This document shows positions 34,840-54,851 of a stretch of DNA of 55,092 nt, in pieces. Origin of the DNA: a virus; the IMG/VR virus record IMGVR_UViG_3300018432_000304, positions 1 to 55,092 of that record; one strand, given 5' to 3'. The notes beneath the pieces are model-generated. The model worked only from the letters and a program-made list of their open reading frames with translations. It searched no databases and was not told the origin of the DNA. Position numbers and translations under genes: made by a program. The first letter of the stretch is position 1. Every line of letters begins with the position of its first letter.

Positions 34840-34868
34840 CCCAGCACGAAACGAGGAGGCCCGCCTAG

Positions 34869-36046: not shown

Positions 36047-36069
36047 CACATCACCTCAAGGGGAGACCT

Positions 36070-38471: not shown

Positions 38472-38942
38472 TCAGCTGTCGGAAGAGGCCAGCGCGGCGG
38501 AGACGAGCCGTCGGACGGCCTCGGCCCGGGATACACCCTGCTCGGCCGCCCAGGCATCAAGCTTGGGGAGGACGTCGCCGAGCCGGAGCAGCACGGCGCC
38601 GCCGATCTCGGGGCGGCCAGGGCCGCGTTCCTCTTCGACCCGGCCAAAGTGCTCTTTGACGGCCTCGTCTTCCCCGTTGCGGGTCAGCCAGTCGCGGGCC
38701 TCGTCGGTGTCGGTGTAGTGGTAGCGGTCCTGCTCGTCGACCCACGAGGAGAAGTGCCGCAGTACCCATCGCCCCTGCGCGGTCCGGTAGAGGCCTTGGC
38801 CTGAGTTGCGGGTGCGGGTGTTGACGTCGACGCGCTGCTCGCCGTCCCAGTAGGTGTCCGCCTTCCAGTAGGTGGCCTTGGCCTCGTCGAACCAGCCGTC
38901 GTTCTCGGCGGTCTCGGGGTTGGTGACGTAGATGCGGGTCAT
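38472..38942 (-). CDS. Hypothetical protein with C-terminal RHH-like domain
   Basis: 156 residues. N-terminal beta region (RIYVTNPETAENDGWFDEAKATYWKADTYWDG...WVLRHFSSWVDEQDRYHY) and C-terminal ribbon-helix-helix-like segment (IGGAVLLRLGDVLPKLDAWAAEQGVSRAEAVRRLV, residues 113-147). ATG 38942 is chosen for AAGGAG upstream. Probably a DNA-binding regulator of the divergent promoter at 39341-39377, second gene of a two-gene minus-strand unit. Confidence 0.6.
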   Translation of the reverse strand: MTRIYVTNPETAENDGWFDEAKATYWKADTYWDGEQRVDVNTRTRNSGQGLYRTAQGRWVLRHFSSWVDEQDRYHYTDTDEARDWLTRNGEDEAVKEHFGRVEEERGPGRPEIGGAVLLRLGDVLPKLDAWAAEQGVSRAEAVRRLVSAALASSDS

Positions 38943-38956
38943 CGTGTGCTCCTTGC

Positions 38957-39307
38957 TCAGAACCAGGGGCTGGTGGTCGCGCGGCTGGGCTGCTGAATCC
39001 ACTTGGCCATCAGGGCCTTGTCGGCGAGGTCAGCGGCGATGCCGCGGGCGATTCGGGCGGCGGGCTTCTCGGTGCCGTCGGTCTTGACGTCGGTGATGGT
39101 GCCGTCGGCCTCGAACCGCTGGTGCGCGCCGCTCGGGTGCTCGGTGGAGGGGGCGGAAGGGCCCTGGCCCGGCGCCAAGTTAGCCATGTAGTAGGTGCGC
39201 TGCTCGCGGACTGCGGCCTGCAGGGCCGCGACCTGGGCGGCGAGTGGGTCGGCGTGGTCGAGGGGGAGCTGCGTGGCGGCCTGGGCGACGGCGGCGAGGT
39301 CGTTCAT
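38957..39307 (-). CDS. Hypothetical protein
   Basis: 116 residues, ATG 39307 with GGAGG nearby. Helical Ala-rich N-terminus, middle disordered (GQGPSAPSTEHPSGAHQRFEADG), C-terminal helix IARGIAADLADKALMAKWIQQ. First gene transcribed from the minus-strand promoter at 39341-39369. Confidence 0.55.
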   Translation of the reverse strand: MNDLAAVAQAATQLPLDHADPLAAQVAALQAAVREQRTYYMANLAPGQGPSAPSTEHPSGAHQRFEADGTITDVKTDGTEKPAARIARGIAADLADKALMAKWIQQPSRATTSPWF

Positions 39308-39340
39308 GTTGTCCTCCTAGTGCCTTACTCGATATCGGCA

Positions 39341-39377
39341 ATCTACTGCTACATGCGCCAGGTCGTCAATAGACGAC
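39341..39377 (-). promoter_or_regulatory. Minus-strand promoter with palindromic operator
   Basis: On the minus strand, TTGACG (39364-39369) is 17 bases from TAGATT (39341-39346), a good sigma70-type promoter for the 39307 gene. GTCGTC-AATA-GACGAC (39362-39377) is a palindrome overlapping the -35, a natural operator. The plus-strand gene starts at 39401, so the same site could control both directions. Confidence 0.6.
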
Positions 39378-39400
39378 ATCGCTTATCCTGAGGAGGCCGC

Positions 39401-39676
39401 GTGCCCTGGGTTGAAGACCCGATCGGCGAGCACGTCCCGGACCCCCTGAGCCCGTCGGGCTGGCGGTGGCGGCGCTACGACGAGCAGCCACCCACTTCGA
39501 TGCTGCCGATCGTCACCCCCGCCGAGGGGCGCACCGTCCGCTACGGCGACCACGAAGACCACGTCCTGCCCGTGCAGCCGCCCGAGCACCCGGGCGGGGA
39601 CTGGGCCAACCCCAACGCCTACCTGTCGTACGACGACGTCGACTCCCGCGGCATCATCGACACCGGAGCGCCCTGA
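39401..39676 (+). CDS. Hypothetical protein before the endolysin
   Basis: 91 residues from GTG 39401 with AGGAGG upstream. WVEDPIGEHVPDPLSPSGWRWRRYDEQPP and HPGGDWANPNAYLSYDDVDSRG: acidic, loop-rich, no family recognised. One base separates it from the endolysin gene, so they are co-expressed. Confidence 0.55.
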   Translation: MPWVEDPIGEHVPDPLSPSGWRWRRYDEQPPTSMLPIVTPAEGRTVRYGDHEDHVLPVQPPEHPGGDWANPNAYLSYDDVDSRGIIDTGAP

Positions 39677-39677
39677 C

Positions 39678-40439
39678 GTGGCCGTCACAAGCCAGAACGG
39701 CTGGCAGGCGAACGACCGCTCCTGCATCGCCTCCTACCAGCTGCCCGGTGGGAAGGTCGCGCTCCGCAAAGGCGACGTGTCCGTCGTGCTGCTGTGGGTC
39801 GCGAACCGCTTCCACGCGACCGTGGAGCCGCTCGTCTGGCCCGGGAACTGGGGCTACGCGGAGCGGCCAATCCGCGGCTCGTCCACGACGCTGTCCAACC
39901 ACGCGTCCGGGACCGCCCTCGACTTCAACGCCCCCGAACACCCCCTCGGGAAACGCGGCACCTTCACCGCCGACCAGGTGGCCGCCATCCGCACGATCCT
40001 CGCGTTCTGCGAAGGCGTCGTCCGCTGGGGCGGCGACTACACCAGCCGCGCCGACGAGATGCACTTCGAGGTCAACGCCGGAGCAGCAGACGTCCGCCGC
40101 GTTGCCGACAAGATCCGAGGCGGAACGTCCGCCGCCCCCCAGGAGGACGAATTGAGCCAACAGCAGGTCGACCACATCATCAGCGTGTTCCGCCGCGATC
40201 TCGGCTTCGCGAGAGACCAGATCCTCACGAGGCTGGGTGTGCACAACCCGCCCAACGCGCCCGCGAAGCTCGCCCCCGAGCAGCTCGCCGGCATCGACCC
40301 CGCCCGCCGCGTAGACGTCGGCTGGGCCCGCGACCAGCTCATCCAAGAGCTCGCCGAGCAGCGCGTCCTCATCGAGGCCATCGCCGAAAAGGTCGGCCTC
40401 CAGTTCGAGGACACCCCGAACACCCCCGGAACGCCGTGA
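39678..40439 (+). CDS. Endolysin, M15 peptidase (VanY-like)
   Basis: 253 residues. LSNHASGTALDFNAPEHPLG provides the zinc ligands His75 and Asp82. RADEMHFEV provides His129 and a nearby acid. This is the D-Ala-D-Ala carboxypeptidase/endopeptidase fold of many actinophage lysins, cutting peptidoglycan cross-links. The C-terminal 95 residues (LSQQQVDHIISVFRRDLGFARDQILTRL...) are helical and may bind the wall. No signal peptide; export would use the holin-like proteins downstream. Confidence 0.88.
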   Translation: MAVTSQNGWQANDRSCIASYQLPGGKVALRKGDVSVVLLWVANRFHATVEPLVWPGNWGYAERPIRGSSTTLSNHASGTALDFNAPEHPLGKRGTFTADQVAAIRTILAFCEGVVRWGGDYTSRADEMHFEVNAGAADVRRVADKIRGGTSAAPQEDELSQQQVDHIISVFRRDLGFARDQILTRLGVHNPPNAPAKLAPEQLAGIDPARRVDVGWARDQLIQELAEQRVLIEAIAEKVGLQFEDTPNTPGTP

Positions 40440-40446
40440 TGGGGAG

Positions 40447-41064
40447 CTACGCGACAGTGGTCTGCTGCACTGATACGGTCCTCCTGCGGGTCAGCATCTT
40501 GCTGATGTGGGATTGACTGATCCCTAGCTGACGGGCGATCCCCCGCTGGGACATGCCCCGGTCGGCAAGCAGGAAGACCGACTCCGTCCACTTGGAATCG
40601 TAGAGGCGATTCGCGTCGGCGACCGCCCGGATTTTTTCACACTCCCGGCAAAGCCGGATTTGGCCGCCGTGACCTCGACGGGATCGCTTCCAGCGGGTGT
40701 TCTCTGAGGTCCATCGGTGGCCACGCTGGCACGTCCGGCGCTCTCGTGCGGACCGACGAACGTTGGCCGAACTGGTAGTTGGCGCCAGGTGCATCGGGTT
40801 GACGCATCTCCGGTGAGGGCACGAGTCCCCGCCGCGGCACTCGTCAGCTCGGTGGCAGAGGTGGTCAAGCACCTCGCTAGGGTCCAAGGACCGAACCATC
40901 GCTGCGTATACCAGGCGATGCGCGAGGTTTGTCGTCCCGTTCCTTCGCTGGCCAGGTGCGTGGCCGTACCCGGCCTTAGTGACGCCCCCTGGCCACACCC
41001 AGCACCTGGATAGATCGCTGGTGTCGATCAGCGCGAACAACTCGTCGAAGGTACGCTTACCCAC
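40447..41064 (-). CDS. HNH endonuclease with C-terminal HTH, antisense
   Basis: 205 residues on the opposite strand to the lysis genes. CWVWPGGVTKAGYGHAP, then VLDHLCHRADECRGGDSC and CVNPMHLAPTTSSANVRR form the HNH core of the phage homing type. CQRGHRWTSENTRW is a further Cys motif. The C-terminus (ESVFLLADRGMSQRGIARQLGISQSHISKMLTR) is a helix-turn-helix. It separates endolysin from holin and is likely a mobile insert with its own expression. Confidence 0.82.
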   Translation of the reverse strand: MGKRTFDELFALIDTSDLSRCWVWPGGVTKAGYGHAPGQRRNGTTNLAHRLVYAAMVRSLDPSEVLDHLCHRADECRGGDSCPHRRCVNPMHLAPTTSSANVRRSARERRTCQRGHRWTSENTRWKRSRRGHGGQIRLCRECEKIRAVADANRLYDSKWTESVFLLADRGMSQRGIARQLGISQSHISKMLTRRRTVSVQQTTVA

Positions 41065-41087
41065 GTCGACCCCTCCCGGTCGGCCAC

Positions 41088-41127
41088 GCCCCGAACCTGT
41101 TCCCGCAGGTGTCGGGGCTTCTTTATT
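41088..41127 (+). terminator. Rho-independent terminator
   Basis: GCCCCGA-ACCTG pairs with CAGGT-GTCGGGGC across a six-base loop and is followed by TTCTTTATT. It is read in the plus direction and stops transcripts coming from the endolysin side just before the holin gene, whose transcription must then start downstream. Confidence 0.75.
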
Positions 41128-41219
41128 GCCCTCGTAAGCATATCAAGAGGGGATCACAAATGGGTGACCATAGTCGGGTCGTCGACCCGGACCCGAGTAA
41201 CCACGAAGGGGAGAACCAC

Positions 41220-41486
41220 ATGTCCGAGCCCAACGGCTTCGCCGACCACGCCGAACCCGCGGCCCCGGTCGAGTCGAAGGTGAAGTGGGGTGCGCTCGCC
41301 GCCTACCTCGGCGGTGTCGCCGCCCTCGCGGTCGTCAACGCCGTCACCGGCAACGACAACCAGCTCCTCATCGCCGCCCTGCCCGACGCGATCGAGCCGT
41401 TCGTGTTGCCGGCCATCCCGGCGGTCCTGTCGGCGATCGGCGGGTTCTTCGCGAAGCACACCCCCCGCCCGGACCTGGGGGTCTGA
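41220..41486 (+). CDS. Holin-like protein
   Basis: 88 residues. An acidic N-terminus, then hydrophobic helices VKWGALAAYLGGVAALAVVNAV and FVLPAIPAVLSAIGGFFAKH, and a short charged tail, as in small actinophage holins. ATG 41220 has GAAGGGGAG upstream; ATG 41161 is an alternative giving 20 more residues. A palindrome CGGGTCG-T-CGACCCG (41175-41189) lies in the leader. It would open the membrane for the endolysin. Confidence 0.75.
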   Translation: MSEPNGFADHAEPAAPVESKVKWGALAAYLGGVAALAVVNAVTGNDNQLLIAALPDAIEPFVLPAIPAVLSAIGGFFAKHTPRPDLGV

Positions 41487-41632
41487 TGTTCCCGATCCTG
41501 GCGATCGTGTGCTTCCTGCTCGTGGTGTTGCGCGCACCCATCGACCTGGACTTGACGAACCTCGGGCTCGTGTTCGTGGCCGCGTGGTGCCTGGTCGGTA
41601 ACTGGCCCATCGGAGGCCGCCTACCCCGATAG
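41486..41632 (+). CDS. Small membrane protein, possible second holin
   Basis: 48 residues from ATG 41486 (TGATG overlap with the holin): two short hydrophobic stretches, FPILAIVCFLLVVL and LGLVFVAAWCLVGNW. Pairing with a holin suggests an antiholin or second holin. Confidence 0.6.
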   Translation: MFPILAIVCFLLVVLRAPIDLDLTNLGLVFVAAWCLVGNWPIGGRLPR

Positions 41633-41674
41633 CTCGCCCGGCCCCAGGTTCCCCGTCTTGGGCTGGGCAGCGAG

Positions 41675-41716
41675 ACGCCCCCCGTTCCAGCCTCGTGCTG
41701 GGGCGGGGGGCGTTTT
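41675..41716. terminator. Strong terminator after the lysis genes
   Basis: ACGCCCCCCGTTCCAGC (41675-41691) pairs with GCTGGGGCGGGGGGCGT (41697-41713) across a five-base loop, with T residues following. It separates the plus-strand lysis genes from the minus-strand accessory genes and can act in both directions. Confidence 0.85.
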
Positions 41717-41737
41717 CGCGTTGGGTTAGAAGACCGG

Positions 41738-42052
41738 TCAACCGCCCTTCAGCGCGGCACGGAAATCGGCGGCCCACTTGTCGACCGGCAGCGGGAGCGG
41801 CTCTTCTCGCCCCACGTCGCGGGCTCCCCAGCACGGATGCTCCGGAGCGTGCGGGGACAAGACGCACAGGTCGTCCGCGTTCCCGTCGACCGGCTTCAAG
41901 CAGCGGCCAGGGTTGCGGACCGCGCTGAGGAGCACAGCCCACGTCCCGTCCAGGCCGTTGCGCTCCAAGTAACCGGCGAACTCCCGGACCGGGCAGCCGA
42001 CCGCCTGCCAGAGATCCAAGGTCAGGTACTGAAAGCCCCCACCCTCAGTCAT
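41738..42052 (-). CDS. Small hypothetical protein
   Basis: 104 residues. TEGGGFQYLTLDLWQAVGCPVREFAGYLERNGLDGTWAVLLSAVRNPGRCLKPVDGNADDLCVLSPHAPEHPCWG: several Cys and a small mixed fold, no family recognised. ATG 42052 has GAGGAG six bases upstream; ATG 42058 is an alternative. Last gene of the minus-strand accessory group. Confidence 0.6.
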   Translation of the reverse strand: MTEGGGFQYLTLDLWQAVGCPVREFAGYLERNGLDGTWAVLLSAVRNPGRCLKPVDGNADDLCVLSPHAPEHPCWGARDVGREEPLPLPVDKWAADFRAALKGG

Positions 42053-42068
42053 GGTCATCTCCTCTACC

Positions 42069-42341
42069 TCACCAGTCGAAGTACTTGTCGTAGCTGCCTT
42101 CGCCGCCGGTCGGCGCCGGCTCCTCCCAACTCACGGGGTGACCCACCCAGTAGAAGGGCGCGGGCGCGGTCCGCTCACCGTTCGGGTCCAGCACATCCCG
42201 GATTTCGACGCACACGGCGGCCGGGATCACCTCATCATGCAAATCCAGGCCGAGGTGCTCCGACAGCAGCCACTGCACGTCGTCGGGCTGCAGCATGCCC
42301 AGATCCTCGGCCAAGTCCTGCGCGGTCATCCCCTCAGCCAC
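42069..42341 (-). CDS. Small hypothetical protein
   Basis: 90 residues from GTG 42341, starting VAEGMTAQDLAEDLGMLQPDDVQWLLSEHLGLDL and ending in SYDKYFDW. The start region is an exact 28-base duplicate of 42731-42758. ATG 42329 is an alternative start. Function unknown. Confidence 0.55.
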   Translation of the reverse strand: MAEGMTAQDLAEDLGMLQPDDVQWLLSEHLGLDLHDEVIPAAVCVEIRDVLDPNGERTAPAPFYWVGHPVSWEEPAPTGGEGSYDKYFDW

Positions 42342-42690
42342 GGGAGGTCCCCCGCAAGCGTCGGTAGTCGAAGGCCGCCCACAGCAGCGCCACCGCCGCC
42401 ACCAGGACGGACCCGAAGACGATCCAAGCAGCTGACCAGTCGCTCCCACTCTGGATGGCGTTGATCCCCACGCCGATCAGGCCTGCCGTGTAGCCGACGG
42501 GCGCCATCACAGCACCGATGAACTCGCCGGGGTGGGGGACCCAGCCCTTGAACGCCAGAGCGTGGAGGCCGATGAGCGTCATCGCTGCGGGCCCGGCGAG
42601 GAGCAGGAGCGGCACCCACAGGGGTGAAAGCAGTACGGCTGCGGCCACCAGGGCAATGTCTCGGGCCCTGGAGCCCCCGTCCACGGTCAC
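42334..42690 (-). CDS. Small membrane protein
   Basis: 118 residues from GTG 42690 with GGAGGAG close upstream. Three hydrophobic helices: DIALVAAAVLLSPLWVPLLLLAG, FIGAVMAPVGYTAGLIGVG and WIVFGSVLVAAVALLWAAF. Its end overlaps the next gene start. The preceding 40 bases are a scar of duplicated gene ends. Confidence 0.6.
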   Translation of the reverse strand: MTVDGGSRARDIALVAAAVLLSPLWVPLLLLAGPAAMTLIGLHALAFKGWVPHPGEFIGAVMAPVGYTAGLIGVGINAIQSGSDWSAAWIVFGSVLVAAVALLWAAFDYRRLRGTSRG

Positions 42691-42740
42691 GGCGTCTCCT
42701 CCTCGTCCGGTGCCCACTCCGACCGCCATATCCTGCGCGG

Positions 42741-43031
42741 TCATCCCCTCAGCCACGGCCAGTACCACCGATCCCACTTCCCGGCCTTGCTGTGCTGGGT
42801 GTCCAGCGTGAGGGTGAGCCGGTATCGACGTCCACAGTCGCAGCGCCAGATCGCGCCGTGCCCGACGTCCATCCTCGGCATCTCGCAGTAGTGCGTGGTC
42901 TGGCGTCCAGCTCGTACGAGACGTCCTCCGCCCTGCTTCCAGCCGTGCTCGTGCAGCCAACGTCGGTCTGTATCGGCGAGCGCGCGGATGAAGACCTCGG
43001 CCTCTTCGGCGGTCATCTTCTCGTCAGCCAC
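42741..43031 (-). CDS. Small Zn-ribbon-like hypothetical protein
   Basis: 96 residues from GTG 43031 with GGAGGAG upstream: ADEKMTAEEAEVFIRALADTDRRWLHEHGWKQGGG..., then THYCEMPRMDVGHGAIWRCDCGRRYRL, a Cys set typical of small zinc ribbons. Ends WYWPWLRG. Overlaps the DUF6221 gene end. Confidence 0.6.
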   Translation of the reverse strand: MADEKMTAEEAEVFIRALADTDRRWLHEHGWKQGGGRLVRAGRQTTHYCEMPRMDVGHGAIWRCDCGRRYRLTLTLDTQHSKAGKWDRWYWPWLRG

Positions 43032-43488
43032 GGTTCTCCTCCTCGTCCGGCGCCCACTCCGACCGCCAACCCGGCCTCCCGCGGTACACGGACGCGAGCA
43101 GACGCACCGTCGGGCACGGCCACGCGACACCGATGTGGCCGCTGCTGTTGATGGGGTAGCCGACGCAAGTCGAGCAGTACCTGCCGTCGTCGTTCTGCTC
43201 GCCAGTCCACGGCAGGTGCAGTTCGAGGATGCGGCGTTTCGCGGCCACCTCGGCGAGCACCCGCGCCGGATCATGACGGGCGATGTGGGCGGCCTGCTCC
43301 TCGCTGCGGACACCTCCACCCTCATAGCCAGGGCCGGCCACTTCAACGCCAGCTTGATCCTCAATGACGAAGGACCCCGTCCACCCACTGTCCTCACCAC
43401 GGATCCAGCGAAGCCCCCCGGCGGCCTGCGCCACCCGCTCGTCCTCGGCCACCTGCTCGCGCAGCCAGGCCACCAGCTCGTCGGTCAC
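43024..43488 (-). CDS. DUF6221 family protein
   Basis: 154 residues. VTDELVAWLREQVAEDERVAQAAGGLRWI, EEQAAHIARHDPARVLAEVAAKRRILELH are the hallmark words of the actinobacterial DUF6221 family, common on Streptomyces chromosomes, phages and plasmids; function unknown. A C-terminal RYCSTCVGY/WPCPTVRLLASVY segment may bind zinc. GTG 43488. Confidence 0.8.
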   Translation of the reverse strand: MTDELVAWLREQVAEDERVAQAAGGLRWIRGEDSGWTGSFVIEDQAGVEVAGPGYEGGGVRSEEQAAHIARHDPARVLAEVAAKRRILELHLPWTGEQNDDGRYCSTCVGYPINSSGHIGVAWPCPTVRLLASVYRGRPGWRSEWAPDEEENRG

Positions 43489-43679
43489 GTCTTCGATCCT
43501 TCCGCACGCAGCTTCAACGTGGCCAGCGCGGCAGCGTAAAGCGTGCATCCAATGGACCGACACCGCGCACACCGACCTTTCCCGTCCGGCCGGTGCTCCC
43601 GCAGCAGCTTCTCCGGGTCACCCTGCCTGTCGATGAGGCGCACCAGGTCACCTGACACCCTCGCCTCTGGTTCCGCCAT
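43485..43679 (-). CDS. Small hypothetical protein with CxxC
   Basis: 64 residues from ATG 43679 with GGAAGG upstream. AEPEARVSGDLVRLIDRQGDPEKLLREHRPDGKGRCARCRSIGCTLYAAALATLKL: helical with a Cys triad. First gene of the minus-strand accessory group; overlaps the DUF6221 start. Confidence 0.55.
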   Translation of the reverse strand: MAEPEARVSGDLVRLIDRQGDPEKLLREHRPDGKGRCARCRSIGCTLYAAALATLKLRAEGSKT

Positions 43680-43725
43680 GACGGTCCTTCCCATTGCGTT
43701 GAGCAGGTGATTCCTGCGGATCGGG

Positions 43726-43755
43726 TTGGCCGCTGTCGGACCGCGGCCGCATACT
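43726..43755 (+). promoter_or_regulatory. Probable leaderless promoter
   Basis: TTGGCC (43726-43731), 18 bases, CATACT (43750-43755), then seven bases to ATG 43763. This distance fits a transcript starting at or next to the start codon. No ribosome site is seen before that ATG, supporting leaderless translation. Confidence 0.45.
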
Positions 43756-43762
43756 CGGTGTT

Positions 43763-44182
43763 ATGGCGGAGACGGCACTCATCCCGGCCTGGGTCGCGCC
43801 GGCGGCCCGGGAGGTCGCCGACTGCCTGTGGATCGCCCACGCCTGCGCCGAAGAGGCCGGCCCCGGGTCGCGGTGGGCGCAGATCGTCGCGGTCATGCAG
43901 TGGGCCACCGACGGCGACGCAACCCGCGACGACGCGGTCGACATGCTCCTGGCCTCCGACGGCGCCGCCTACACCACCGTGGTGTGGCTCCTCGGCCGCG
44001 GCCCAGCCCCGTTGCGGCTGCCGCGCCGCAACCCCGACGGCACCACCCTCACCGAAACCCAGCTGTACGCCGAGTACATGCACGGTCTGACCGGGCTGCC
44101 GGAGCAGCGGCGTGACGCCGAGACGCGGGCTAGGAAGGACGCCGGCCACTACCGGCGTCTGGCTGCGCTGGTGCCGCACTAG
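43763..44182 (+). CDS. Hypothetical protein, isolated plus-strand gene
   Basis: 139 residues. AETALIPAWVAPAAREVADCLWIAHACAEEAGPGSRWAQIVAVMQWATDGD...: mostly helical, ends GHYRRLAALVPH. It is the only plus-strand gene between the accessory and transfer modules, driven by its own probable leaderless promoter. Its end overlaps the end of the minus-strand gene at 44179. No family recognised. Confidence 0.6.
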   Translation: MAETALIPAWVAPAAREVADCLWIAHACAEEAGPGSRWAQIVAVMQWATDGDATRDDAVDMLLASDGAAYTTVVWLLGRGPAPLRLPRRNPDGTTLTETQLYAEYMHGLTGLPEQRRDAETRARKDAGHYRRLAALVPH

Positions 44183-44556
44183 CGTCCCCTCACACGCGCG
44201 GCACCAGCATCTTCATCGGCGGCTGGGATCCACGCTGGCGGCTCATCCCGCTGTGAAGGGATCAACAGACCCGGTACAGATCGTCGCCGCTCGAGCTCAT
44301 CCCGGGGGACGCGAGAGTTCCCGTACCCACGGCCGCCGTCGTACCTCTGCCAAATCGGGTCTGCGGCGATCTCCTTCCCGGAGTCTCGCATCTGCTCCTG
44401 ATGCTCTCGCCGCGCCCGAGAGATCTCCGCACCCAGGCGGGCTGCCACCACGTACTGGTCGTTCGGCGGCAGTTTCGACAGCTCCGCCGCCAGCTCAGCT
44501 GGATCCATGTCGAGCACCGCCCGCCGCAGCGGTGCCGGGATGTGGCGTGGCTTCAC
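44179..44556 (-). CDS. Small protein after the relaxase
   Basis: 125 residues from GTG 44556, overlapping the relaxase stop. KPRHIPAPLRRAVLDMDPAELAAELSKLPPNDQYVVAARLGAEISRARREHQEQM: helical and basic, then a disordered tail. Position suggests a partner of the relaxase or the last gene of the transfer operon. Confidence 0.55.
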   Translation of the reverse strand: MKPRHIPAPLRRAVLDMDPAELAAELSKLPPNDQYVVAARLGAEISRARREHQEQMRDSGKEIAADPIWQRYDGGRGYGNSRVPRDELERRRSVPGLLIPSQRDEPPAWIPAADEDAGAARVRGR

Positions 44557-47500
44557 GACCGCTCCCTCACCATCGCCAGCTCGTCGGCCTGCTCAGGTGC
44601 GGCGAGCCACTGCTGCTGCCGCACCCCGGCCTCTTCGTCCTCGCGGAGCTGGTCCGCCTGTTCGCGGGCCTCGATCTCCAGCAGCGTCTCCCTGGCGCGG
44701 GCCACCGCCTCCGCTGTGGTGTCGGCGTCGGGGACCTCGCGGCGCACACGGGGGTCGTGCTCCGTCGGGTCCGCCACGGCGACGTCGCGGAGGTCGGGCA
44801 CGTTCGTCTCCGGCGACACCGCAGCAACCGGCTCGTCGGTGTTCTCGTCGACCAGGTCGACCTCTGCGATCGGCCGCACCTCATCGCCGGCGACACGGTC
44901 CTGCGCTTCGGCGGCCAGCCACTCCGCCGCTGTCGTCTTGTCCGCCGGGTTCACCAGATCCACACCCCGCCGGCCCAGCTCGGCCTTCGACCGCTCCCCG
45001 CGGTCCCGGGTGCCCGCCGTGTGTAGATACCACCGGGTGCGGGCCTTGTCGGCTTCGTCGAGGTCGAGGGCGCGCTGCTCAAGCTCGTCGGCTTCCCGCT
45101 CCGCCTTCTCCGCCGCGCCGAGGAGGTCGACCTTCTCGTCGCCGTCGAGGGTGTCGGCGCGTGCCTTCCACAGCCCGGAGTCGGTGCGCTTCGCGGCGAC
45201 CGTCTCACTGGTGGTGGCGAGCTCGTCGGCGACGAACCGCGGAGCCAACGTCTGCTCCCGATCCCACGCAGCGGCGCGCACCAGCAGCTGACCGGTGGTG
45301 AGCATCGCCTCCTCCGGCCCCACATCCGGCAGGTCGAGGGCTGCGTGCGCGGTCGCCCACACGGCGTGCTTCTCCGCCAGACCCGCCGGGGGAGCAGCCC
45401 CGAGGGGGTCCTGCTCGTCGGTGTGCTCCATGTTCTCGCGGTGCGCGGCAGCCCAGCTGGCCCGGGATTCCCACTCGGCGCGGCGCAGCGGATCCTCCGG
45501 CACCGGCCCGAGCGTCTCCAGGGCCCACTTCGGCTGTTCCTCCGCGGTGCGCGCACCCAGCTCATGGCGGCGCTCATCGGCTGCGTCGGCCCGGGCCTCC
45601 AACCAGCCCTGCCACCGCTCCGACACCCCAGCCGGGATGAGGTCCCGGTACGAGGAGATCTGCGGGACCTTCTCGTTGAGGGTGTTGCGGATCCGGGCGT
45701 GCAGTACCCGCCCCACCGACGTCGCCCCCGTCAGAGACTTTCCGTCCAACGCCTCGTGCAGCACCTGCTCGGGGTTGCGGCCGGACACCTCGACGTAGCG
45801 GAGCAGCCGATCCACCGACCCCATCGCCTGATCCGCTGCGAGGGCCTCCCGCTGCTCCACAGTGATCGCACCGGTGGCCGCCAGCCGGTCCAGGGCCCGC
45901 GAGGTGGAGCCGGCGCGGACCTCGGCGATCCCCGCCAACAGGCGGTCCACCTGCCGCAGCGTTGACACCTCGTCTTCGCCGGCCTGGGCCTGCTCGGCGA
46001 GCGCCCCCCGCTCGGCCTCGACCCGCTCCAACCGGTCCGCCAGGACAGCCTTCGCCGTGCGCGCCTCCACGTCCTGCGCCTCACCCACCGGCGCATCCGA
46101 GGCAAGCGGCTGGGTCGTCACCCACGCGGTGTTCGCTTCACGGCCGCGGGTCATGCCGACGTAGCTGCCGGTCAGGTCATGCCCGGTGTCGACGGTGCGG
46201 CCCTGCGCCGCGTGCAGCGTGGACGCGTAGGCGAGGGACAGGTGCTCGGCCACATACGAGGCCGGCAAGGTGACCTCGACGCCCTTCCCGGTCTCCACCC
46301 GCAGCCCACCATCCGGGAGCGCGTCGAGGACCCGGTACGTCTGCCGGTTCACCACCGGCACCTCGAGACCCCAGTTGTTGCGCCGCGCCTGCACAAGGTC
46401 CCCGACCCCGGCGAGGTTGCCATCCCGACCGAGCGCCACACCGTCCTCGGCGACCCGCCCGAGGCGGACGAGCTCAGCGCGCATGGCCCCGGACAGGCGA
46501 CCGGCCTGCTCGTTCGAGGACACCATCAACAGCGACTGCTTCCCCGCGAGGGTGTCGGCCAGCCACGCCCTACCGGCGTCCGCTTCCGCCTCCTCCGCGG
46601 TCCCGCACGAGCGGAGCCGGCCGTGCTTGTCGTAGTCGTCCAGCACCGACACGTCCCCGTCACGCAGCCGCAGCGACGCCTCCCGTTCCCACTCCTGCTG
46701 GAACCGGCGAACCTCCGTCAGCTCATACCGGCGTGCGGCCGCGCCGACGTCGGCGAGCGCTCCACCCGGCCCGACCGCGGCCAACTGCAATGGATCCCCG
46801 ACGAGCAGCAACTTCGCGTTAGCTGCCTCGCAGCGGCGGGCGATGTCGGCGACGTCCTGGGTGGATGCCATCCCCGCCTCGTCCACCACGACGAGGTCAC
46901 CGTCACGCAGCTGCCACGTCGGCGACGTCTCCACGCTGGCGCGCCACTTCTCGAAGTTGAACGCCGTCACACCCTCATCGACCATCACATCGGCCGCGGT
47001 CTGGGAGGCGGTCAGGCCGATGGTGCGTCGCCCGTACTGCGCCCACACCTCGGCCAGCGTCCCGACAGTGAACGACTTCCCCGTCCCCGCCGCCGCGTCG
47101 AGCACCTCAACGCACGCACCAGAGGTCGCCACCCCACGCACCGCGGCGGCCTGGTCGACGCCCAGCTCGACACCAGCCGCCGCGAACCGCCGGGTGACCA
47201 GCGCAACCTGCGCGTCGGTCAGCTGCGCCGCACCTGTACGCACGGCGGCCCGCTCGAGGAGGCGGTCGTCGACCATCTGCCCGGAGGTGGCGTACTTCGC
47301 GGACCCCGGACGTTGGAACGCCGACAGGCCGTTCCGGAGCTGGAACTCCGACGGCAACCCGGCCGCATCCTCAGCCGCCACCACAACCGTCGCCTCGGCG
47401 AGAGCTTTGTCGGCGAGCCCCTCCAACAAGGGACGGATCCGGCCGGCAGGCAGGTCGAGGTTCGCCGGCAACGCCGACGACACCGCGAAGATCAGATCGG

Positions 47501-48755: not shown

Positions 48756-48759
48756 CGGC

Positions 48760-48954
48760 TCAGCGACCCCTGGCGCGGGCGGCCATCCGCTCCGGGGCGG
48801 GCGCCACCCACTCCCATGGCGTCACCGCCGACATCAACCCGGCGAACGCCTCCCGGGCGAGCTGCACCGCCTTATCGGTGCGCGCACCCACCGGGGCGGT
48901 CATCGCCCCCCACGTCCCCGACTGCGGGATGCCATGGTGCTTGTAGTCGCTCAC
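48760..48954 (-). CDS. Small hypothetical protein
   Basis: 64 residues from GTG 48954 (GTGA overlap): SDYKHHGIPQSGTWGAMTAPVGARTDKAVQLAREAFAGLMSAVTPWEWVAPAPERMAARARGR. Directly upstream of the relaxase in the operon, four bases apart. The start lies in the repeated junction motif. Function unknown. Confidence 0.6.
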   Translation of the reverse strand: MSDYKHHGIPQSGTWGAMTAPVGARTDKAVQLAREAFAGLMSAVTPWEWVAPAPERMAARARGR

Positions 48955-49199
48955 CGGGCCCACCCGTCGTCCTGGCTGGTCCTGTAGGCGCCGTCCCAAA
49001 CGGTGACGTCCCGGAGCCTGCTGGCGTGGTCCTTCATCTCTTCGGCCTTCTGCAGCCAGCGTTCGGCCTCGTCGGTTCCCCGGTCGTGCCGGCCTGCGAG
49101 GTTCCGGTAGAACGCGGAGGCTTCGGTGAACTCGTCCATCTGCCCGCCATACAGTTCCTCCCGGGAAGGGACGAACGGTCGTGGCTCCTTCTCGCTCAT
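48951..49199 (-). CDS. Small helical protein ending GWAR
   Basis: 82 residues: SEKEPRPFVPSREELYGGQMDEFTEASAFYRNLAGRHDRGTDEAERWLQKAEEMKDHAS...SQDDGWAR. Highly charged. ATG 49199 overlaps the preceding stop through the repeated junction motif. Confidence 0.6.
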   Translation of the reverse strand: MSEKEPRPFVPSREELYGGQMDEFTEASAFYRNLAGRHDRGTDEAERWLQKAEEMKDHASRLRDVTVWDGAYRTSQDDGWAR

Positions 49200-49495: not shown

Positions 49496-49743
49496 CGGGC
49501 CCACCCGTCGTTCCTGGCGGCCGACTGCTGTGCGCCGTCCCACACCCAGACCTCAGGAGAGTCGATGAAGGCGGCGCACAGGTAGCCGTAGTCGCTCATG
49601 GGCGCGAGCTGCTCCACAGGAACCTCCTGCGCCCCGGCTCGGTGCGAGTCAACGGCGGCCCTGACCTCGTCCATGTCGGCGCCGTGGTCGAAGGTGGTGT
49701 CTCCGCCGCTCCGTGCGGCGACGGCCTCGTCGTACTGGGTCAT
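49492..49743 (-). CDS. Small protein ending GWAR
   Basis: 83 residues from ATG 49743 (GGAAG upstream): TQYDEAVAARSGGDTTFDHGADMDEVRAAVDSHRAGAQEVPVEQLAPMSDYGYLCAAFIDSPEVWVWDGAQQSAARNDGWAR. The part SPEVWVWDGA matches TVWDGA of the 48951 gene, so they may be distant paralogues. First gene downstream of the non-coding 49744-49899 region. Confidence 0.6.
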   Translation of the reverse strand: MTQYDEAVAARSGGDTTFDHGADMDEVRAAVDSHRAGAQEVPVEQLAPMSDYGYLCAAFIDSPEVWVWDGAQQSAARNDGWAR

Positions 49744-49903
49744 TTGATCTTCCTTCGCTGCTGTTCACACCATCGGATCGGAGGATGCTTACGGTGTGGA
49801 CTGCTTGATTCGGGCTTGTGGTGATCTTGTGTGAGTGGTGATCGTGCTGAGATGTGGATCTAGATAGGACTGAATGGACTAGCTGAACTCGGAAATGGAC
49901 TAG
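49744..49903. promoter_or_regulatory. Repeat-rich AT-leaning gap, candidate oriT or promoter
   Basis: About 155 non-coding bases, more AT-rich than the surroundings. GTGGTGATC occurs at 49818-49826 and 49835-49843, AATGGACTAG at 49873-49882 and 49894-49903 (21 bases apart), and the palindrome ATCTAGAT at 49858-49865. It lies between the coupling-protein/DUF4913 genes and the genes leading to the relaxase, a usual place for an oriT or an internal operon promoter. Confidence 0.4.
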
Positions 49904-50550
49904 TGCACAGGGGGGTGGAGCTTCGCGTCGTCGTACGCCTGCGCATCCGCGATCTGCTCAGCTGACGGCTCCGGCGGAAGACCCTGCGACGTCCACGCAG
50001 CCGCGACAGCGCGCATGTGCCCTGCCAGCGGCGCAGCCACCGGAGAACAAGCCGCCGCGCCACCAGGCCGGTGCTTGCCCAGGTCACACGAGCCCAACGC
50101 CTTCTGGATGCGCTCCACGACACGAGGCCGCTGCTGGTCGTGCCACATACCGGCGTGCGCCCCCCACACGCGGGCCGCGTAGGCGTCGGCGTGCGCGGTC
50201 CGCAGCCACCACAGCTCCTCGATCACCCAGGGATGCCACGCCCAGCACGGCGGGAGCTGCACCCCCGGGTAGCGCAGGTAGACGGCGTCCAACCACTGCA
50301 CGAGGTCTTCGAGGAGCGCCTCGGCCTTGTCGGGGTCGGACAGCAGCAGCCACGACGCGGCCGGGCGGGTGTCGTCGATCCCCCGGAGGCGGTCGATCAC
50401 CCGCCCCAACGTTTCCCCGAGATCCCCGACGGCCTGGTCGAGTTCGCCCACCCGCTCCACCGTGGGCTCCCACTCGCCCACCCGGTGGGTGAGGCGGTCG
50501 ATCTCCCGGGCGAGCGCACCAACGTCGGGTGTCGGGTCAGTGGGCGACAT
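49900..50550 (-). CDS. DUF4913-like transfer-region protein
   Basis: 216 residues. N-terminal coiled coil (ALAREIDRLTHRVGEWEPTVERVGELDQAVGDLGETL), then LEDLVQWLDAVYLRYPGVQLPPCWAWHPWVIEELWWLRTAHADAYA, the DUF4913 signature found in actinobacterial mobile elements next to TraG-like ATPases. Function unknown. Overlaps the coupling protein end by 14 bases. Confidence 0.72.
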   Translation of the reverse strand: MSPTDPTPDVGALAREIDRLTHRVGEWEPTVERVGELDQAVGDLGETLGRVIDRLRGIDDTRPAASWLLLSDPDKAEALLEDLVQWLDAVYLRYPGVQLPPCWAWHPWVIEELWWLRTAHADAYAARVWGAHAGMWHDQQRPRVVERIQKALGSCDLGKHRPGGAAACSPVAAPLAGHMRAVAAAWTSQGLPPEPSAEQIADAQAYDDAKLHPPVH

Positions 50551-52300
50551 CGGTCAGCTCCCGTGGGTGGGCGAGCACCGGGTGGGTGGGCGCGGTGGGT
50601 GTGGGTGCCGGGTGGGCGACCACGTGGGTGGGCGACAGAGCGGGCGCCCAGGGGGTGAACCCGCGGCGCTTCCACACCGGGTGCACCCACCCGACGGCGG
50701 GTGGCATGTCGGAGAACACGACCACCCGGAACGGTGGGAGGCTCGCGATCTGGGCGGGCGCCAGGACGGGTGTCTTCCGCACCGAGGTGGAGGTGACCTT
50801 GCCGTCGCCGCCGCGGGTCTTCACGACCTCGTCACGGTCACCGGCGAGGGAGGCCCACGCGTTGAGGTCGTCGGGGTCCTTCGTGCCGCCGTAGAGCATG
50901 ACCGAGCCCGCGTTGTTGAGGATCTTGGAGGCCCCGGTGCGTCCCCAGCGATCCACCAGGTCCGCTCGGGACTGGAACGCGCAGATCAGCTGAATCCCGG
51001 AGCCGCCGGAGTCACCGGACCAGTCGGGCAGCGGCACCGGCGACACCCGCGCGGCCTCGTCGAGCGCAAGCATGAGGGGCGGGTCAAGCCGCCCAGCCGG
51101 CTGCAGCGCCGCCAACCGGCGGGCCTCCCGCGCCACATACCCGGTGAACGCAGCCAGCAGCGGCGCTGTGTGCGCCTCATGCCGCCCCAGCAGGTACACC
51201 GTGCCGCGGTCGCGCAGCAGCGTGGCCACGTCGAACGGGGCCCCACCCTCGGTGGCGGCGACCGCGTCCGGGGAGGTCAGCCACCCCAACGCCGGCGTGA
51301 TGGCGTTCGTGATCGACGACTGCGTTTTGTCGGTCAGCGCAACGAACTGGTTAACGTCCTCGAGGAACGCCGTCGGGTCCGGTGACCGCTTCAGCAGGGC
51401 GTTGAGCTCCGCCGAGGCGGCCGCCGGGTTCGCCACCCACCGCTGCACATCGCGCATGCTCCGACGACCGGACGGGTCGAGAGCGGCGGCGTGCAGGAAC
51501 GACGCGAAGTGCCGGCGGGCCTGACCATCCCAGAACTCCCGCTCGTCCCCTTCGGCCTCGGGGATCATGTCGGCGGCCCGGGCGGTGGCAGTGGTGGGGT
51601 CCTGGCAGCCGGTGAGCGGGTTGAACGTGACGGTCGACTCCAGCTCACCGAGCCCACCCGGGTTGAACACCCACACCTCACGCCCGCCGGTCTCCCGGGC
51701 GGTGCGGGTGAGCCCGATGATTTCGGTGCGGGTGGAGGTGGTGAGGACCGCGCCGGGTGCGTCGGAGATGGCCCCGGCGAGCCACGCCGTCTTCCCCTTC
51801 CTTGGCCCGCCGATGGCGAGCACGACGTCTTCGCACGACGCCCACAGCCACATCCCACCGGAGCGGCACAGCTTCACACCGAGCTCGGTGGTGGGTGTCC
51901 GCCACCTCGCCCACCAGCCGACGTCGCGGAGGTGTGGGCGGACAGCGGCGGCCTTGCGGTGCATCGCCCACCAGGACCCGTGCCAGGCGACCTGCCACAG
52001 GGTGGCTACCCCGGAACGTCGGCGGGCGCGTTCCCCGGCGCGGGTGACGGTGCGGGCGTTCCCGGAGCGGAGCCATGCCACCCACCCGGTGACGACCCCG
52101 CCGCCCACGAGGAGGGCGGCCAGGAACGCGGTCGTGCCGTGGGCGAGGTACACCCACACGGCGAGACCCATCCCGAGCCCGGCGAGGGCGGTGACGATGA
52201 GCCTGCGGTCGACCTGGCGGGAAAGCGAACGAACTACAGCGGTGACGGCGACGGTGGCGACGACCCCGCCGGCGGCGAGCAGCAGCAGGGTGGGGTTCAT
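50537..52300 (-). CDS. Type IV coupling protein (TraG/TraD-like ATPase)
   Basis: 587 residues. N-terminal membrane helices (residues 2-22, 35-53, 57-76), Walker A AIGGPRKGKTAWL (Lys170, Thr171), TTSTRTEIIGLTR, VFNPGG, and Walker B LMLALDEAARVSP (409-421), with IQLICAFQSRADLVDRWG later. This is the VirD4-type motor that brings the relaxase-DNA complex to a membrane channel. The C-terminus is Pro/His-rich. ATG 52300 overlaps the upstream gene. Confidence 0.88.
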   Translation of the reverse strand: MNPTLLLLAAGGVVATVAVTAVVRSLSRQVDRRLIVTALAGLGMGLAVWVYLAHGTTAFLAALLVGGGVVTGWVAWLRSGNARTVTRAGERARRRSGVATLWQVAWHGSWWAMHRKAAAVRPHLRDVGWWARWRTPTTELGVKLCRSGGMWLWASCEDVVLAIGGPRKGKTAWLAGAISDAPGAVLTTSTRTEIIGLTRTARETGGREVWVFNPGGLGELESTVTFNPLTGCQDPTTATARAADMIPEAEGDEREFWDGQARRHFASFLHAAALDPSGRRSMRDVQRWVANPAAASAELNALLKRSPDPTAFLEDVNQFVALTDKTQSSITNAITPALGWLTSPDAVAATEGGAPFDVATLLRDRGTVYLLGRHEAHTAPLLAAFTGYVAREARRLAALQPAGRLDPPLMLALDEAARVSPVPLPDWSGDSGGSGIQLICAFQSRADLVDRWGRTGASKILNNAGSVMLYGGTKDPDDLNAWASLAGDRDEVVKTRGGDGKVTSTSVRKTPVLAPAQIASLPPFRVVVFSDMPPAVGWVHPVWKRRGFTPWAPALSPTHVVAHPAPTPTAPTHPVLAHPRELTDVAH

Positions 52301-52557
52301 GACGTCACTACCCGGAGGCTGACGAGCAGGATCGCAACCAAGCCGATAGCCATCACGACGGGCCACACTGCGAAGCCACTGAGAACGGCGGCCACGAGGC
52401 CGCCGGCAGCAGCTGCCACGTCGAGGGCGAGCGTTATGCGGCTCATCGGCCGGTGCCTGGTGAGCCGGCGCCGGTCGACGAGGTTCCCTGCTACGAGACA
52501 GACGCCCGCGGCGATTAGGGCGATGGCCGCGGGATCGGCTACGACAGAGAGGTTCAT
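52297..52557 (-). CDS. Membrane protein of the transfer operon
   Basis: 86 residues from ATG 52557: hydrophobic helices NLSVVADPAAIALIAAGVCLVAGNLV, ITLALDVAAAAGGLVAAVLSGFAVW and VVMAIGLVAILLVSL. Start overlaps the DUF2637 gene's stop. Could be a spread (Spd)-type protein; inference. Confidence 0.6.
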   Translation of the reverse strand: MNLSVVADPAAIALIAAGVCLVAGNLVDRRRLTRHRPMSRITLALDVAAAAGGLVAAVLSGFAVWPVVMAIGLVAILLVSLRVVTS

Positions 52558-53228
52558 GACGCGTGTCCGTTCGTGGAGTAGGTGCGGATGAGCTGCTTCG
52601 CCTTGTGCTCGGTGACGCCCAGCTCCCGCTGCAGGCGGACCTTCCCGAGGCCCTGGTGGACGAGCTGGCGGGCCTTGTCGTGGTCGACGTCCTGCGGACG
52701 CGGGTTGGGGGTGGGCCTGCGTGGCGGCTCGGCAACAGGCACGAGCGCGACGGTGGGTGCGCTGCGCCACTGCACGGACATGCCGTTGTCCTCGAGCGCC
52801 GGCAGCTCCTCGCCGGGCTCCTCCTCGACTACCGGTGCTGGCACGTCGGCGCGACCGACGAGGACGAGCAGGTGGACCGTGCCGCCGACCACTGCCGGTG
52901 CAATGGCGCCGACGATGACGGCGGCCCACCACGGCGGTGTCACCTCGAGGGCGTGCCAGCCGGTGGCGGCGGCGTTCGCGGCCACAGTGAGGGCGAGCAG
53001 CGCCCAGGTGAGCCACCGCGCGAACCGGCGTGCGTCCTCACGGCCCCCCGGGGACAGCCACACCGCGCACGACACGGCCGCGCCGGCATCTACCGCGAGA
53101 GGGAGGAGCGGCGCCAAGCTCTCGTTGATCCGGACAGCGACTGCGAGGCTCCGCAGCGCGTCGAACGACAACACGGCAGCGGCGCCGAGGACGACCGCGA
53201 GACCGAGCATGGACAGCCAGCGGCTCAT
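52554..53228 (-). CDS. DUF2637-like membrane protein with HTH tail
   Basis: 224 residues. Four hydrophobic helices (about 6-22, 38-58, 71-90, 100-125) with SFDALRSLAV...LLPLAVDAGAAVS, the layout of actinobacterial plasmid DUF2637/Spd proteins. A C-terminal helix-turn-helix is at 184-217 (ARQLVHQGLGKVRLQRELGVTEHKAKQLIRTY). Probably a membrane component of transfer or spread, with a DNA-binding tail. ATG 53228 is preferred over much longer open frames. Confidence 0.68.
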   Translation of the reverse strand: MSRWLSMLGLAVVLGAAAVLSFDALRSLAVAVRINESLAPLLPLAVDAGAAVSCAVWLSPGGREDARRFARWLTWALLALTVAANAAATGWHALEVTPPWWAAVIVGAIAPAVVGGTVHLLVLVGRADVPAPVVEEEPGEELPALEDNGMSVQWRSAPTVALVPVAEPPRRPTPNPRPQDVDHDKARQLVHQGLGKVRLQRELGVTEHKAKQLIRTYSTNGHAS

Positions 53229-53482
53229 CGGTCGATCACCCGCGAGTACAGGAGCGCCCCGCCGGCGACGGCGAGCAGGACGACGAGCCCGATGACGGCG
53301 ATGTGGAACCGGCCGTCGGTGTCGAGGTAGACGCGGATGACCGCGCCGGAGGCAATGGCTGCGAGCACGGTGAGCGGTACGAGCCACACCCCGGACTCGG
53401 CGGACCGGCAGCCCGCGGGGGGGAGGGGCACCGCGAGGGGCTGCGTGGCCTGCTCGGCTGGGGCCTTGGTGGGGGCGCTCAC
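53225..53482 (-). CDS. Two-span membrane protein
   Basis: 85 residues from GTG 53482. Disordered N-terminus (SAPTKAPAEQATQPLAVPLPP), then VWLVPLTVLAAIASGAVIRVYL and HIAVIGLVVLLAVAGGALLY. Overlaps neighbours on both sides, so part of the same operon. Function unknown. Confidence 0.6.
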   Translation of the reverse strand: MSAPTKAPAEQATQPLAVPLPPAGCRSAESGVWLVPLTVLAAIASGAVIRVYLDTDGRFHIAVIGLVVLLAVAGGALLYSRVIDR

Positions 53483-53790
53483 CGTGCCCGCCCCTCGTCG
53501 CCATGCTGGTCCAGCAAGCTCGACCAGTCGACCGTGTCGGATCGACGCACGGCCTCGTCTGCTGCGAGGAGCTCGGCTTGGGTGCTCCTGCGGACTTCCG
53601 CCCAGTACGCCGCGTGCGTTCGGTCGAAGTCCTGTGTCGGGCTCTGTGGGTTGTCGGGGTCGAGTTCCCGCTCGCCGGCGTCCCGCTCGGCCAGATGCAG
53701 GTTGAGCAGCCGCATGACCTGGTCATGGCGGACGGGCGGGACGGCTTCGTTGCCGCGGCCGACCCGCAGGATGCCGCGGAGGCCCTTCAT
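53479..53790 (-). CDS. Small acidic hypothetical protein
   Basis: 103 residues from ATG 53790: KGLRGILRVGRGNEAVPPVRHDQVMRLLNLHLAERDAGERELDPDNPQSPTQDFDRTHAAYWAEVRRSTQAELLAADEAVRR. Helical, no family recognised. Overlaps genes on both sides. Confidence 0.55.
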   Translation of the reverse strand: MKGLRGILRVGRGNEAVPPVRHDQVMRLLNLHLAERDAGERELDPDNPQSPTQDFDRTHAAYWAEVRRSTQAELLAADEAVRRSDTVDWSSLLDQHGDEGRAR

Positions 53791-53999
53791 CGGGTCCGCC
53801 CCTCGGCGTCGCTGTCGTGGGCTGCGAGCCAGGTGGTGAGGCCGTCGCGGATCGCTTCTGCCTCGTCGACACGCCAGTCCACCCACTGGTTGCCGTCGGG
53901 GTGTCCCAGCGTGAGGCGGACGCGGTCACCCGAGGCGCTGAGGGTGGTGGTGCCGTGGTCGGTGGTGTCGGTGCTGGGTGGGCTGACAGGATGCTGCAC
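53787..53999 (-). CDS. First gene of the transfer operon
   Basis: 70 residues from GTG 53999 with AGGAGGGG upstream: QHPVSPPSTDTTDHGTTTLSASGDRVRLTLGHPDGNQWVDWRVDEAEAIRDGLTTWLAAHDS. Small beta-alpha protein. It starts about 100 bases after the predicted minus-strand transcription start near 54099. Confidence 0.6.
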   Translation of the reverse strand: MQHPVSPPSTDTTDHGTTTLSASGDRVRLTLGHPDGNQWVDWRVDEAEAIRDGLTTWLAAHDSDAEGRTR

Positions 54000-54092
54000 A
54001 GCCCCTCCTTCCTGCTGGTTCAGGGGGTGGGGTAGGCCCGGCTGGGAGGTGCGAACTCCTGGTCGGGCCGTCTTCGTGTGGACGCCTAGCCC

Positions 54093-54144
54093 TGTCCACA
54101 TCTGGACAGTAGCGCGGATCCTCAGTACTGTCCAGATGTGGACA
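54093..54144. promoter_or_regulatory. Symmetric divergent promoter/operator
   Basis: TGTCCACATCTGGACAGTA (54093-54111) and its exact reverse complement (54126-54144) flank a 14-base spacer. Each arm contains TGTCCA-N4-TGGACA, an operator half pair. On the plus strand TGGACA (54103-54108), 17 bases, TACTGT (54126-54131) forms a promoter; by symmetry the minus strand has the same. One regulator could thus control both directions equally. Confidence 0.75.
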
Positions 54145-54168
54145 ACCACATGGATAACCTGATCAACC

Positions 54169-54420
54169 ATGACGAGCCGCGAGGAGCGCAACGCGTTGAA
54201 GAACTTGAGCCGGCTCCTCGCCAGCGACCTTGCGACGATCGACCAGGAGGAGCTCCTGGCAGGCGTCCGCGACGCCGAGGTGGCCTTCGACAGGTCGCCG
54301 GAGTGGAGCGGTCAGCTCCTGGCGGAACTGAAGCGGAGAGGCTGGTCGTGGCCACGTCTCGCTGCGATGACCGGGATGAAGAAGACGACCGTCATTCGTC
54401 GAGCGCAGCCGTACCGATAG
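54169..54420 (+). CDS. Small HTH protein, candidate regulator
   Basis: 83 residues from ATG 54169. N-terminal helices (REERNALKNLSRLLASDLATIDQEELLAGVRDAE), then a C-terminal helix-turn-helix (LLAELKRRGWSWPRLAAMTGMKKTTVIRRA). It lies just right of the symmetric operator, so it is the best local candidate to bind it. No strong ribosome site precedes it. The downstream GIY-YIG frame overlaps its end. Confidence 0.65.
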   Translation: MTSREERNALKNLSRLLASDLATIDQEELLAGVRDAEVAFDRSPEWSGQLLAELKRRGWSWPRLAAMTGMKKTTVIRRAQPYR

Positions 54421-54851
54421 ACCGCCCGCACACGTACATCCGACCGCTTGCGCCGGACAGAGGCGTCGTCTACCGCCACCACGACGCGGCCGGTGTCCTG
54501 CTCTACGTCGGCTCAACGACGGTCTTGGCGATGCGCCGCCGTCAGCTCTGTCACGGGAGTTCCGCCCGCTGGTGGCGGTTCGTGGTGCGAGTCGAGCACG
54601 AGGAGCACGAGAATCGGCGCGCTGCTCTGGACGCCGAGCGAGCGGAGATCCACGCCGCGACGCCGATCTTCAACCGCAACCGGCCAGGGGGAATCGAGGA
54701 GCACGAGGCGCGGGAATTCGCGTACCTCGCGGCACACTCATGCGTCCCGGACTGGTGGGGGCCGAAGCTGCGTTCGCTCCGGAAGCTCGATCCCGTGACT
54801 CGACGAGCGCACGTGGACGTGCTGCTGTCTGGGATCGGCGTACCTGTTTGA
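54348..54851 (+). CDS. GIY-YIG nuclease-domain protein
   Basis: 167 residues from GTG 54348, which has GGAGAG at 54335-54340. The domain shows RGVVYRHHDAAGVLLYVGST (the GIY and YIG strands), Arg63, Glu100 in ERAEIHAATPIFN and Asn109, so the catalytic set seems complete. The C-terminus is helical. A longer reading from GTG 54138 is open but would overlap the whole HTH gene. Next to the attachment region; it might be a homing or accessory nuclease. Confidence 0.7.
   Translation: MATSRCDDRDEEDDRHSSSAAVPIDRPHTYIRPLAPDRGVVYRHHDAAGVLLYVGSTTVLAMRRRQLCHGSSARWWRFVVRVEHEEHENRRAALDAERAEIHAATPIFNRNRPGGIEEHEAREFAYLAAHSCVPDWWGPKLRSLRKLDPVTRRAHVDVLLSGIGVPV

Follow-up and report, generated by a model that had tools for sequence, protein, structure and literature searches.

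Phages and conjugative elements differ in host range, size limit and cost, and it is usual to regard them as separate kinds of vehicle. The closest known systems to the locus reported here are the MobF integrative mobilizable elements of Pseudonocardiaceae, which share its operon order, encode relaxases up to 54% identical and have no channel genes nearby. Full-length relaxase homologues (35-38% identity) are also encoded by the actinomycete MobF plasmids p1 of Natronoglycomyces albus and pA387 of Amycolatopsis; p1 has a related coupling protein too, but is a plasmid with its own SCO6880-type and VirB4-like transfer genes. Among phages, Trax, Octobien14 and Neville of Gordonia have the same portal type (49-53% identity), with no coupling-protein match and no true relaxase match. 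The locus lies in IMG/VR virus record IMGVR_UViG_3300018432_000304, which is classed as linear and is identical to the window (G000), the whole stretch of 55,092 bases that was analysed. Whereas the mobilizable elements carry no virion genes, here the operon appears to lie within a phage genome.

We propose, with a probability of roughly 0.7, that the window represents a cos-packaging temperate siphovirus that integrates at the 3′ end of a tRNA-Asn gene and holds the transfer operon of a mobilizable element in an accessory slot, with the lysis genes on one side and the attachment site (att) on the other. One element may, on this reading, spread both as virus particles and via the mating channel of another element. 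The phage contigs with the module are metagenomic and all of the evidence is inference from sequence; the comparison covers anatomy, conservation across a phage lineage, and position within both an att-bounded and a cos-bounded genome.

The transfer operon and its flanking palindromes

The operon occupies 9.2 kb (44.5-53.7 kb) on the strand opposite to the late genes, and encodes a DUF2637 protein, a coupling ATPase, a small protein and a relaxase, with further small genes between the last two. Its features, and those between it and the right end of the window, are as follows.

44553-48755, minus strand: MobF (TrwC-type) relaxase-helicase of 1400 aa (TrwC, AAA_30, NCBIfam MobF and fold matches)
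49900-50550, minus strand: small conserved transfer-operon protein; most of the 80 chromosomal loci described below have it in the same place, flanked by the coupling protein and the relaxase
50537-52300 (open reading frame to 52735), minus strand: VirD4/TraG-like coupling ATPase (type IV coupling protein; TraG-D_C, E = 1e-18, and T4SS-DNA_transf)
52554-53726, minus strand: DUF2637 membrane protein (PF10935, E = 3e-10)
54093-54144, no strand assigned: paired imperfect palindromes with 26-nt arms, 88% complementary, in two copies, GTCCACATCTGGAC / GTCCAGATGTGGAC
55053-55091, plus strand: att core, formed by the tRNA-Asn 3′ tail; phage G430 has the identical core as its attP

The relaxase contains a TrwC domain (E = 1e-45; 156.8 bits against a Pfam cut-off of 25) and an AAA_30 helicase (E = 2e-48), and scores above the NCBIfam MobF cut-off (151.4 against 100 bits). 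The best structural matches of its modelled N-terminal domain (mean pLDDT 81) were TrwC and TraI (E = 3e-13). Residues Y12, Y24, D132, H232 and H234, the last two forming the HxH motif, are invariant across the clade. The first metal-binding histidine of TrwC aligns with Gln221 here, and the neighbouring His222 is invariant clade-wide: residues 219-225 carry QHD(S/N)R throughout the Pseudonocardiales clade, with the first metal histidine of TrwC falling one residue earlier. The original prediction, made from the DNA letters, of a MobF relaxase-helicase with all catalytic residues was therefore right as to the family, the tyrosines, Asp132 and the HxH motif, but not as to the first metal ligand, which is displaced.

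The predicted VirD4-like coupling ATPase was borne out by matches to TraG-D_C (PF12696) and T4SS-DNA_transf (PF02534), both above cut-off, and by the Walker A motif GGPRKGKT; its likely start is the ATG at 52300. DUF2637 was likewise found, the true start of that protein probably being internal to the annotated frame, whereas direct scans of the window gave no match for DUF4913 (PF16259), which had also been named. An AAA_10 match, the mark of a VirB4-like channel ATPase, was absent from the window, as anticipated, and from all six phage contigs; any transfer would therefore use the channel of a helper. VirB4-like ATPases were present elsewhere in each of the five related host genomes searched. 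For translocases of the FtsK/TraB type, as in actinomycete integrative and conjugative elements (AICE), the window had no match to the FtsK-like protein of phage G430, the sole query of this type tried.

The paired palindromes sit between the operon and a divergent GIY-YIG-like gene (54169 onwards), and are not conserved in the related contigs G002 or G004. They are probably an operator pair for the transfer operon, and may have a role as an origin of transfer (oriT). A search for a conserved oriT that covered the region upstream of the relaxase and the 54.1-kb palindrome gave no candidate, neither being conserved among the phages.

Lysis-relaxase junction, attachment site and packaged ends

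A single relaxase query against viral contigs gave no match; alignment queries recovered relatives at 66-69% identity in IMG/VR contigs G001 (41.3 kb), G002 (69.2 kb) and G004 (72.2 kb). A database search for the synteny of phage late genes and a MobF relaxase, which had been suggested as a check, was positive in all three: they also carry homologues of the window's phage genes and the same lysis-relaxase junction.

41738..44556, no strand assigned: junction genes, including a DUF6221 protein (43024-43572, E = 6e-31) and conserved small genes

Within the junction, window positions 42067-42343 match the three contigs at 76-79% nucleotide identity. Their divergence is too great for a single assembly error copied among them. 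An isolate contig, G006, was dropped from the comparison: its relaxase is about 31% identical and is separated from the phage genes by an integrase, so that it may belong to host flank.

We read G004 as a near-complete genome. It runs from terS through the late genes and lysis genes to the relaxase (35576-39799), the coupling protein (41357-43282), a serine recombinase (47468-48955) and early genes that include a primase-polymerase/D5 replication protein and RusA. It finishes with homologues of the 4.5-5.4 kb region of the window, and its order is therefore circularly permuted relative to the window. G002 has the same gene order as G004, but a different head module and a tyrosine integrase. 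Beside the intact serine recombinase of G004 (L027; 47178-48955) lies a 60-aa remnant of a tyrosine recombinase, approximately 70% identical to that of contig G003, a pairing that marks an integrase replacement in progress.

The 3′ tail of tRNA-Asn fills the last 40 bases of the window, where it occurs once, with 0 occurrences expected by chance. When 392 genomes from the Pseudonocardia parietis family were sampled, 74 contained a 29-base stretch of the tail, and the four copies that were read are tRNA-Asn genes. The identical 39-base core stands beside the tyrosine integrase of G430 (66.1 kb, portal 61% identical), a phage of the same group that lacks the relaxase. Because a relaxase-less phage has this very core as its attP, the right-end attachment site is the phage's own and the operon lies inside it. 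The core is either attR or attP, and one window base lies beyond the shared core. In G002, a tRNA 3′ tail (19963, minus strand) falls between the operon and the integrase. The window has neither a second tRNA-Asn tail nor a tyrosine integrase elsewhere, in keeping with the predicted absence of a second tRNA-Asn 3′ end between the modules. Integrases adjoin the att core in G002 and G430 and none lies within the window; that of the window phage is beyond its left end. As to a phage-plasmid, with episomal replication and partition genes during lysogeny, the integrases and tRNA attachment sites point to integration, the early region being missing from the window. In our reading the host of the phage is a member of the Pseudonocardiaceae, of the Pseudonocardia-type soil bacteria.

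The packaged ends were approached through 37 contigs collected by portal similarity, whose start positions were examined relative to terL. Eleven, G004 among them, start 336-532 bases upstream of terL, seven of these with AGC and one more with TAGC (AGC frequency in these contigs 0.016 per base, P approximately 9e-11).

6120..6125, plus strand: position homologous to the family cos end (AGC...), internal in the window; G004 and related contigs begin there

G004 thus seems to begin at a genuine end of the molecule, such as cos cutting leaves on packaged DNA. As this start falls on the family cos site and the operon lies between both ends of G004, the module is placed inside the packaged genome. 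As evidence that such phages form infectious virions, the cos-ended contigs are indirect.

Taken together, the junction kept in three more contigs, both modules in cos-ended G004 and the G430 attP identical to the window core make it very probable that the window is one phage genome containing the operon, as had been proposed. The alternative is that two separate elements with boundaries of their own are neighbours here, or that a prophage and a mobilizable element are stacked side by side. Each module does occur alone elsewhere, and the host family commonly carries mobilizable elements that have this operon; yet the att repeat or integrase between the modules that two elements could have left was sought as a tRNA tail or integrase and not found, the attP core of the phage lies on the far side of the operon in the window, the G002 tail separates operon and integrase, the order is kept in four contigs, and G004 covers both modules end to end. 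Relatives with a single module, which had been named as a sign of two elements, do exist, as relaxase-less phages and as chromosomal mobilizable elements free of phage genes; they show that the module was acquired and are no evidence of stacking here. We therefore regard two elements as very improbable. A chimeric metagenome assembly, to which the metagenomic origin of all the phage contigs would lend itself, is refuted in practice by the same junction in four independent assemblies at 65-80% nucleotide identity, and its likelihood is negligible.

The rest of the window gives the element its phage character, and the window as a whole is most of what we read as a temperate siphovirus genome. 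The late genes, from terminase to lysis, run rightward over 6.2-41.5 kb. The head, tail and lysis region that had been predicted was recovered by PHROG matches for TerL, portal, scaffold, capsid and tail genes together with an endolysin. The element is larger than the interval first described (38472-54851), its virion genes starting at about 6 kb.

6168..8176, plus strand: terminase small and large subunits (TerL phrog_9, E = 7e-65; TerS only a weak Terminase_4 match, below cut-off)
6539-8176, plus strand: TerL (PHROG match)
8939-10414, plus strand: portal protein (phrog_104, E = 4e-107; 78% identity in G004)
11709..21281, plus strand: scaffold, major capsid, head-tail genes, major tail, tape measure and Dit (PHROG matches)
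12458-13639, plus strand: major capsid (PHROG match)
15253-15801, plus strand: major tail (PHROG match)
16699-20397, plus strand: tape measure (PHROG match)
21294..38424, plus strand: genes for tail and tail-tip proteins, with small accessory genes; homologues stand in largely the same order in G004, G001 and G002
39678-40439, plus strand: endolysin, an M15 peptidase (PF13539; phrog_1512, E = 3e-37)
41675-41713, plus strand: terminator-like hairpin after the late genes (17-nt arms, 88% complementary, then TTTTC)

Within the tape measure gene, positions 18855-19778 hold a tandem repeat with a 132-base (44-aa) unit, in several copies 60-78% alike. Between the endolysin and the last lysis-region gene, an opposite-strand frame (40447-41064) encodes a homing-endonuclease-like zinc loop and a helix-turn-helix (HTH); it appears mobile, because its relatives stand at different places in G001, G410, G420 and G430.

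Origin, spread and selection of the operon

A genome scan gave 155 relatives, from which 80 loci were kept, nearly all in Pseudonocardiaceae and other actinomycetes. Most of the 80 have a coupling protein, a protein of the 49900 type and a relaxase, in that order. Their fetched flanks contained no homologues of phage structural genes and essentially no counterparts of the channel genes known from a related plasmid. We read these loci as integrative mobilizable elements, and the comparison indicates that the phage operon derives from such elements of Pseudonocardiaceae. A quickly built tree of 92 relaxases, in which G003 and G005 are long branches, groups those of the window, G001, G002, G003 and G004 into a single clade (supports 99-100), with chromosomal relaxases of Pseudonocardia as its neighbours.

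The relaxase of G005 falls in another branch of this tree. This contig (L016; 35,292 bp) has an SPP1-type portal and a serine recombinase, and its MobF relaxase is encoded between the recombinase and the terminase. We take it as a likely second, independent capture.

Pairwise ratios of non-synonymous to synonymous substitution (dN/dS) for the relaxase were 0.14-0.31 among the window, G001, G002 and G004, similar to the 0.24 of the portal gene, and 0.43-0.49 in pairs with the more distant G003; these values indicate purifying selection on the phage relaxases.

Among 24 portal-related records, many of them short fragments, only G004 had a TrwC relaxase; near-complete-length records G410, G420, G416 and G430 were without one. 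A prophage with the portal of the window was found in one of the 392 genomes of the Pseudonocardia family, with no relaxase nearby.

The slot between lysis genes and attachment site is filled by different genes in each relaxase-less relative compared. In G430 (L199; slot 37879-41169, between lysis and attP), it encodes a 729-aa FtsK/TraB-like protein. Over 96% of its length, this protein shares 44% identity with a protein with an FtsK/SpoIIIE domain from a plasmid of Pseudonocardia broussonetiae, where the homologue adjoins DUF2637 and a tyrosine recombinase; the G430 protein itself matched no Pfam or NCBIfam model at the thresholds used. From this one genome, it seems that more than one kind of transfer module can be recruited to the slot.

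Proposed role and comparison with known systems

Our data are consistent with a model in which, after excision, the relaxase would nick an oriT on the circular phage DNA and its helicase would unwind the nicked DNA, while the coupling protein would dock the nucleoprotein onto the type IV secretion channel of a co-resident plasmid or integrative and conjugative element (ICE). The recipient would then re-form the prophage and integrate it without lysis, and lytic induction would still release virions with the same genome. That the operon serves conjugal mobilisation is, on the comparative evidence, somewhat probable; the fuller proposal, in which the phage has a second, lysis-free mode of spread as single-stranded DNA (ssDNA) through helper channels and a slot beside attP that repeatedly acquires plasmid transfer modules, is put forward tentatively.

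Several points weigh against this model and the genome it presupposes. The left flank and integrase are missing from the window; no oriT was identified; the first metal-binding histidine of the relaxase is shifted by one residue; and in the coupling protein of G004 the Walker A motif reads AGPRRGKT, which departs from the strict spacing GxxxxGKT. Most portal-related phages are also without the module, which is therefore dispensable and accessory.

MobF relaxases resemble rolling-circle initiators chemically, and the phage could have co-opted the relaxase-helicase for the metabolism of its DNA, perhaps to start rolling-circle synthesis of concatemers for packaging, with no conjugal transfer. 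The lack of channel genes would suit such a role, but a coupling ATPase, useless for replication, is kept alongside the relaxase in the window, G002 and G004, and it is because of this protein that transfer is favoured. Moreover, G004 has its own primase-polymerase/D5 replication protein, and related phages with the same head genes manage without a relaxase, making this explanation unlikely. It is quite unlikely, too, that the operon is a passenger, a mobilizable element inserted in a phage and now inert cargo. Its origin in mobilizable elements is clear and a second, remnant tyrosine recombinase stands beside it in G004; against this, the reading frames are intact in four divergent phages, dN/dS is low (0.14-0.31), and the module persists despite exchange of head genes (G002) and of integrase type (G004).

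In 50,697 phage records, the coupling protein had no match and the relaxase had three, all partial. Two of these are Mycobacterium 'phage' Adler (KC960489 and KF981876), a record deposited as a phage that contains a TrwC relaxase domain. A later reading makes Adler a plasmid that carries parA, parB, traI and traM but lacks core phage genes (PMC5562415). It is thus probably a plasmid, and we rejected it as a phage precedent on that ground; its record would mislead automated surveys of relaxases in phages. Our literature search, which was confined to open-access papers and did not cover subscription ones, turned up no account of a lineage of temperate phages that has both a relaxase and a coupling protein.

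If a phage lineage stably maintains, under selection, a relaxase and a coupling protein in its packaged genome, it would be a hybrid vehicle. If the model is true, virions would serve distance, and conjugation would serve dense or mycelial communities and passage beyond receptor barriers, a dual-mode mobility that becomes directly testable. Traffic between phage and mobilization genes is already known from P1-like phage-plasmids and from mobilizable plasmids that descend from these, whereas here the virion genes look complete. The window and its relatives would represent a class of element likely to be divided or wrongly assigned by the phage and plasmid classifiers now in use.

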